From Bacteriovoracaceae bacterium (lineage in GTDB: Bacteria > Bdellovibrionota > Bacteriovoracia > Bacteriovoracales > Bacteriovoracaceae): a stretch of DNA of 64,000 nt. A model generated the notes under the pieces. The model was not told the origin of the DNA and did no database searches. It worked only from the letters and a program-made list of their open reading frames with translations. The position numbers were made by a program, and so were the translations under genes. Where the stretch lies: the NCBI GenBank assembly GCA_947446575.1, contig CANFHC010000011.1, positions 1 to 64,000 of the forward strand, in the 5' to 3' direction. This document shows positions 39,203-39,475 of this stretch, in pieces (position 1 is the stretch's first letter; the number at the start of each line of letters is the position of its first letter).

Positions 39203-39345
39203 TAATTTACTCCCTTGAGAAAAAACAGACAATCGCTCCTGCTAATGTCTGCACACATCACATCCTGTGAATAAAGGAGCGCCTTCGTCCACTCTGATAA
39301 TTTTATTGAGGTCACTTTTTAAAAAATCTGGTTATAATGAAATGA
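39203..39345 (+). repeat. Dispersed repeat, copy A
   Basis: About 140 bp here match 40374-40511 at most positions (for example AACAGACAATCGCT, ATGTCTGC, CATCACATCCTGTGAATAAAGGA, CACTCTGATAATTTT, AGGTCACTTTT, ATCTGGTTA). Inside are CAGACA/TGTCTG arms, CGCTCC/GGAGCG arms and the small hairpin TCACA-tcc-TGTGA, so the copy could fold into a cruciform or RNA structure. The element ends in TATAAT (39333-39338) just before the ACTT tract. Confidence 0.85.
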
Positions 39346-39389
39346 ACTTACTTACTTACTTACTTACTTACTTACTTACTTACTTACTT
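39346..39389 (+). repeat. ACTT microsatellite, 11 units
   Basis: Eleven uninterrupted ACTT units run from 39346 to 39389, followed by ATTA. They begin 7 bp after the TATAAT box of the repeat element and end 86 bp before the outer-membrane protein start codon. Other copies of the repeat show only one or two units, so the tract has expanded here. Slippage during replication would change the promoter spacing or leader length. Confidence 0.9.
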
Positions 39390-39475
39390 ATTAATCATAT
39401 TCAAAAGTATTATCAATTTAAATCAGAATAAAAGTGAATATTTCAATTATAAGTTTTTTACTCTAGAGTATTGAA

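Follow-up and report, generated by a model that had tools for sequence, protein, structure and literature searches.

The locus considered here raises the question whether a long tetranucleotide tract residing in front of a gene for a secreted, probably outer-membrane protein in a predatory member of the Bacteriovorax group serves as a switch of its expression, as the initial annotation had proposed, or came to this place by another route. Two systems with comparable layout are available for comparison. In Moraxella catarrhalis an AGAT tract located 132 bp upstream of uspA2 is proven to be polymorphic and to give graded mRNA levels (PMC7302503), and in Neisseria meningitidis a TAAA tract is placed ahead of the nadA core promoter, between repressor sites (PMC2791445). 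The ACTT tract studied here resembles that of uspA2 (PMC7302503) in being a tetranucleotide repetition of similar unit number in non-coding DNA upstream of an outer-membrane protein gene, but differs from it in forming the tip of a dispersed repeat and in being known here from one assembled sequence; with nadA (PMC2791445) it shares the vicinity to a candidate promoter of a surface-type gene, but it starts 7 nt after the -10-like box. Our searches of the open-access literature retrieved no report of a surface gene tuned by an SSR for the Bacteriovorax group. The whole stretch of DNA that was analysed, hereafter the window, spans 64,000 nt (G000:C11:1-64000) of a 3.39-Mb assembly in 71 contigs, and because this assembly is a MAG, the number 11 given below for the units of the tract is an assembled consensus and not a clonal count.

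The ACTT tract as the right tip of a dispersed repeat

The tract was reported correctly as 11 uninterrupted ACTT units at 39346-39389 (+), all of which are perfect, as were the TATAAT hexamer 7 nt ahead of it (39333-39338) and the 86-bp gap separating it from the gene, which is intact and starts with ATG at 39476. Its origin by chance is excluded: (ACTT)3 gives nine overlapping matches in the window versus 0.01 per shuffle when the window is shuffled with preservation of dinucleotides, and runs of at least four ACTT units occur at two places only in the whole 3.39-Mb assembly. Genome-level SSR statistics, based on 906 kb sampled out of these 3.39 Mb, gave three tetranucleotide tracts of at least four units, (ACTT)11, (ACTT)5 and (TGTT)4, the two longest of which (11 and 5 units) are both tips of the same dispersed repeat; the length of 11 units is unique in the sampled genome and exceeds what composition predicts. 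A weak match to the repeat is found some 50 bp away from the (TGTT)4 tract (L152, G000:C29:19486-19573). A separate candidate for unit-number variation is found in the window at 33360-33845, where tandem repeats of about 135 bp (DUF346-type) reside within a gene for a secreted protein. The features of the region are as follows.

37268..37308, + strand: right-end-only fragment of the repeat, two ACTT units
37408..38370, + strand: polysaccharide deacetylase gene, between repeat copies
39157..39390, + strand: full repeat copy with expanded ACTT tip, 86% identical to the 202-bp consensus
39333..39338, + strand: TATAAT box within the repeat, without a good -35 element
39346..39389, + strand: (ACTT)11 tract, expansion of the right tip of the repeat, ACTTACTTATTTAA
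39437..39475, + strand: sole upstream stretch conserved with orthologues, A/T-rich, with an AGAG ribosome-binding-like motif
39476..40204, + strand: gene for a 242-aa secreted, probably outer-membrane protein, whose orthologues in three congeners are 85, 84 and 69% identical
40329..40526, + strand: second full repeat copy, in the same direction on the opposite side of the outer-membrane gene, one ACTT unit
40543..41253, - strand: lipoprotein-like gene between repeat copies, no family match
41421..41456, + strand: right-end-only fragment of the repeat, two ACTT units
41723..41748, + strand: fragment from the interior of the repeat, TGCACACATCACATCCTGTGA, bordering the conserved ssb locus, at which synteny is restored

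The tract does not stand by itself but forms the right-hand tip of a repeat that is dispersed in the genome. Searching with the segment 39000-39480 delineated this repeat, of about 200 bp, at 39157-39358. It occurs in full at 40329-40526, C1:175-376 and C1:2323-2524; copies that are nearly full are found elsewhere, and partial ones are numerous. The usual right end of the repeat reads ...GGTTAnAATGAAATGAACTTACTTATTTAA, other copies of the ~200-bp form terminate in ACTTACTTATTTAA, and both long ACTT tracts are placed exactly at a repeat tip, in the window and at C13:74935-74954, where five ACTT units are followed by two ATTT. The assumption that the tract has expanded at this one place thus holds within the window but not for the assembly, given this second copy on contig C13. 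Likewise, related copies with one or two units had been listed, and this is true for both right-end fragments, but nothing tract-like is present at 40374, the copy in question being that at 40329-40526 with a single ACTT in its tip (about 40514-40526). A mobile-repeat origin of the tract is well supported, and slippage of a two-unit seed would be the simplest way for it to arise.

The long form of the repeat contains a 24-nt core with palindrome TCACATCCTGTGA, found in the window at 39250-39275, 40422-40447 and 41723-41748, at the loci L034, L042 and L045, and also alone, outside the repeat, in several Bacteriovorax genomes; it may represent an operator, or else a small repeat of its own that became inserted in the long form. 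A 19-nt core motif searched across all genomes gave matches outside Bacteriovorax at about chance level by our own estimate. Two further assignments were discarded, that of the motif as a translated peptide owing to inconsistent frame, and that of the repeat as a structured RNA, since its fold is no better than that of shuffles and no Rfam family was matched.

Promoter region and the gene behind the tract

The suggestion that transcription starts at or inside the tract fared poorly. The best -35 match for TATAAT at normal spacing is three of six positions (3/6 at 16 and 18 bp, 0/6 at 17 bp), and 4/6 is reached only at 21 bp; a consensus promoter scan, which yields no more promoters than shuffled DNA, did not call TATAAT, and the region is not enriched in promoter-like sites. 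In other copies of the repeat the box appears as TAAAAT, TAGAAT, TACAAT or TTCAAT, its third base being variable (T, A, G, C). For 39 repeat copies, the gene that follows on the side of the tract is co-oriented in 21 cases and opposed in 18, so the repeats are not placed as promoters, and a role of the repeat as a dedicated promoter was rejected on account of this lack of orientation bias. Moreover, the expanded tip on C13 precedes a gene for a cytoplasmic PRMT-like methyltransferase and not for a surface protein. The initial annotation is supported in part: the tract is not due to chance and lies in non-coding DNA just upstream of an intact gene, but the promoter component is weak. Since the tract lies outside the reading frame of the 242-aa gene, and the TAG at 39464 closes this frame between the tract and the ATG, frameshift switching is excluded and only effects on transcription, leader or coupling are possible. 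A leader ORF would end next to the start codon at 7, 10, 13 and 16 units; coupling through it was rejected given the absence of a ribosome-binding site and the position of the leader ATG, which would be upstream of the proposed transcription start.

Read by eye, the 242-aa product shows a signal peptide, a beta-type alternation in its sequence and Phe as its last residue. Its earlier description as an outer-membrane barrel is favored by these traits, but gained nothing from Pfam and NCBIfam, where no family was matched, or from a single-sequence fold model with pLDDT of 31; the barrel is considered likely from sequence features. More distant orthologues are found in three other genomes. With dN of 0.082 and dS of 0.75 relative to the closest orthologue, that of G009, the gene is under purifying selection. 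Upstream of the congeneric orthologues (n = 3) neither repeat nor tract was found, the upstream DNA being unrelated, and nucleotide conservation with G009 begins just 39 nt before the ATG. Because only about 39 nt of upstream DNA are conserved, the present promoter of the gene probably resides in newly joined DNA, possibly in the repeat. Elsewhere in the window (46173-46952) a histone H1-like protein is encoded, in which AAKKAPAKK repeats give way to an acidic tail rich in aspartate and glutamate.

In terms of function, a purely neutral microsatellite, that is a repeat tip grown by slippage with no regulatory effect and with the promoter located in 39391-39475 or further upstream, falls somewhat short of even odds. 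It would account for the expansion of two copies whatever the downstream gene and for the weak promoter at TATAAT, and the A/T-rich segment 39391-39475, the last 39 nt of which are conserved with orthologues, could hold a promoter; against it stands the end of the tract only 86 nt from the ATG, where most changes in length would alter the leader or the promoter spacing, provided that transcription begins at the tract or above it. A locus selected for phase variation (contingency), in which the unit number would alter spacing or leader and so switch or grade the outer-membrane protein, appears unlikely. Such a locus would offer what is seen here, a tract of 11 units, not attributable to chance, that immediately follows a -10-like box and precedes an intact gene of surface type, and the layout is comparable to those proven for uspA2 (PMC7302503) and nadA (PMC2791445), whereas the lack of a -35 element at normal spacing, the orthologues devoid of the tract, the methyltransferase gene behind the other expanded copy, the absence of a bias of repeat tips towards preceding genes and the absence, in the sampled 906 kb, of any other such tract before surface genes all speak against it. 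Polymorphism of the tract length is likely and a regulatory effect on the gene is possible.

Unidirectional repeat arrays and IS91-family transposases

The repeat array, more than the tract, is the unusual thing at this locus. A sequence model of the repeat (R1) run on 13 genomes of the genus Bacteriovorax detected 69 copies in eight of them. All 11 contigs bearing at least two copies are unidirectional, with 20 of 20 further copies agreeing in direction (~1e-6 if independent). The copies are clustered, mostly at spacing of 0.2-11 kb, with one or few genes between them, and the genes separated in this way are secreted, toxin-antitoxin-like or hypothetical and occur in both orientations. On contig C1 a segment with a U32-peptidase-type gene (L024, G000:C1:2525-5150) has 93.5% DNA identity to G006, and the match extends from the first base after the right end of one repeat to the left end of the next; at exactly these repeat ends synteny with G006 and G012 is broken. 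Therefore, some of the DNA coding for the genes between repeats has been acquired, and it is at the repeats that it was joined. The assembly also retains its own 68%-identical copy of the U32-peptidase-type gene on C8, and L024 would be either a segment that was clearly acquired or part of a contig assigned to the wrong bin.

Eight near-identical copies in G007 have unrelated flanks, and one of them truncates a recombinase gene; reading these flanks by eye disclosed neither target duplication nor terminal inverted repeats, nor a fixed tetranucleotide (GAAC-like target) beside the copies. Repeats of this kind, about eight in number and about 150 bp long, reside on contigs C19, C21, C47, C158, C189, C245 and C267 of G007 and read GGGTCTAGGACC...CTTCTTAAATAAG. 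In G005 a 302-aa tyrosine recombinase (L187, G005:C119:5042-5950) is encoded 190 bp from a repeat; the recombinase beside the repeats was dismissed, being unique to G005 except for a fragment near the 24-nt core motif on G002:C75.

A gene for an IS91-family transposase (Y2_Tnp, PF04986) neighbours the repeat at five loci, two of them in G002 and one each in G000, G005 and G012. The junction falls at the identical base in four of these five loci (G005:C126, G002:C49, G002:C26 and G012:C231), where the right end of the repeat, ...TTAAG, is joined to A(C/T)CGA(A/G)ATTAG..., a terminus just past the 3' end of the transposase gene. One more such junction, devoid of an intact transposase gene, is present on G005:C119, and on G000:C49 a partial repeat occupies the corresponding place. 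IS801, a member of the IS91 family in Pseudomonas syringae, leaves terminal fragments of 229-679 nt and moves neighbouring DNA by one-ended transposition (PMC3189936). With its miniature right-end fragments the Bacteriovorax repeats have in common the Y2 transposase, the lack of TIRs, short terminal fragments and passenger DNA, but they differ from IS801/IS91 (PMC3189936) in forming unidirectional arrays of short terminal-type repeats with many passenger genes, and are known from sequence alone. We infer that the repeat represents a terminal or miniature element associated with IS91. IS91 as a driver of its spread is unproven, because G007, a 90%-complete assembly, has the most uniform copies yet yielded no IS91-type transposase.

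The outer-membrane gene thus seems to be a passenger, carried in an array that is mobile and resembles an integron without being one. It is rather improbable that this amounts to a cassette system of Bacteriovorax operated by IS91-type rolling-circle transposition, in which short terminal repeats would collect passenger genes and align them in one direction and their tips (TAnAAT plus ACTT end) would act as portable length-tunable promoters. A true integron, with repeats as attC sites and genes as cassettes, is highly improbable: chromosomal cassette arrays likewise have same-direction, species-typical repeats separating variable genes, here secreted, toxin-antitoxin-like and hypothetical, but an integrase (IntI) over the TIGR02249 cut-off was found in none of 14 genomes, the repeat has neither a conserved hairpin nor an attC-like single-strand fold with pairing ends, passengers lie in both orientations, segment boundaries fall inside neighbouring genes, and IntegronFinder detected no integron in Bacteriovorax sp. 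As-1 (PMC12642874).

Origin of the tract and its possible role

Taken together, the best account of the locus, to which we assign a probability of about 0.7, is a slippage-expanded tip of an IS91-associated mobile-type repeat, situated in the new leader or promoter region of an acquired gene. According to it, slipped-strand expansion would have acted on the ACTTACTT motif that terminates a short repeat of mobile type (150-205 bp), which is associated with IS91-family rolling-circle transposons, may have been spread by them, and appears to bracket acquired passenger genes in unidirectional arrays. The outer-membrane-type gene would have lost all but about 39 nt of the upstream DNA common to its orthologues, and with the repeat tip 86 nt before the ATG, the tract would come to lie in or beside its new promoter or leader. 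The tract length probably differs from cell to cell, and as in uspA2 or nadA it may have a modest effect on the level of the transcript or the length of its leader.

If changes in the length of the tract do affect output, the Bacteriovorax group would possess a surface gene tuned by an SSR. Apart from this, the tract exposes a genus-wide, one-direction repeat family tied to IS91-type transposases and bracketing acquired genes, and through arrays of such repeats predatory bacteria may collect and reshuffle genes for secreted proteins, a route concrete enough to be tested.
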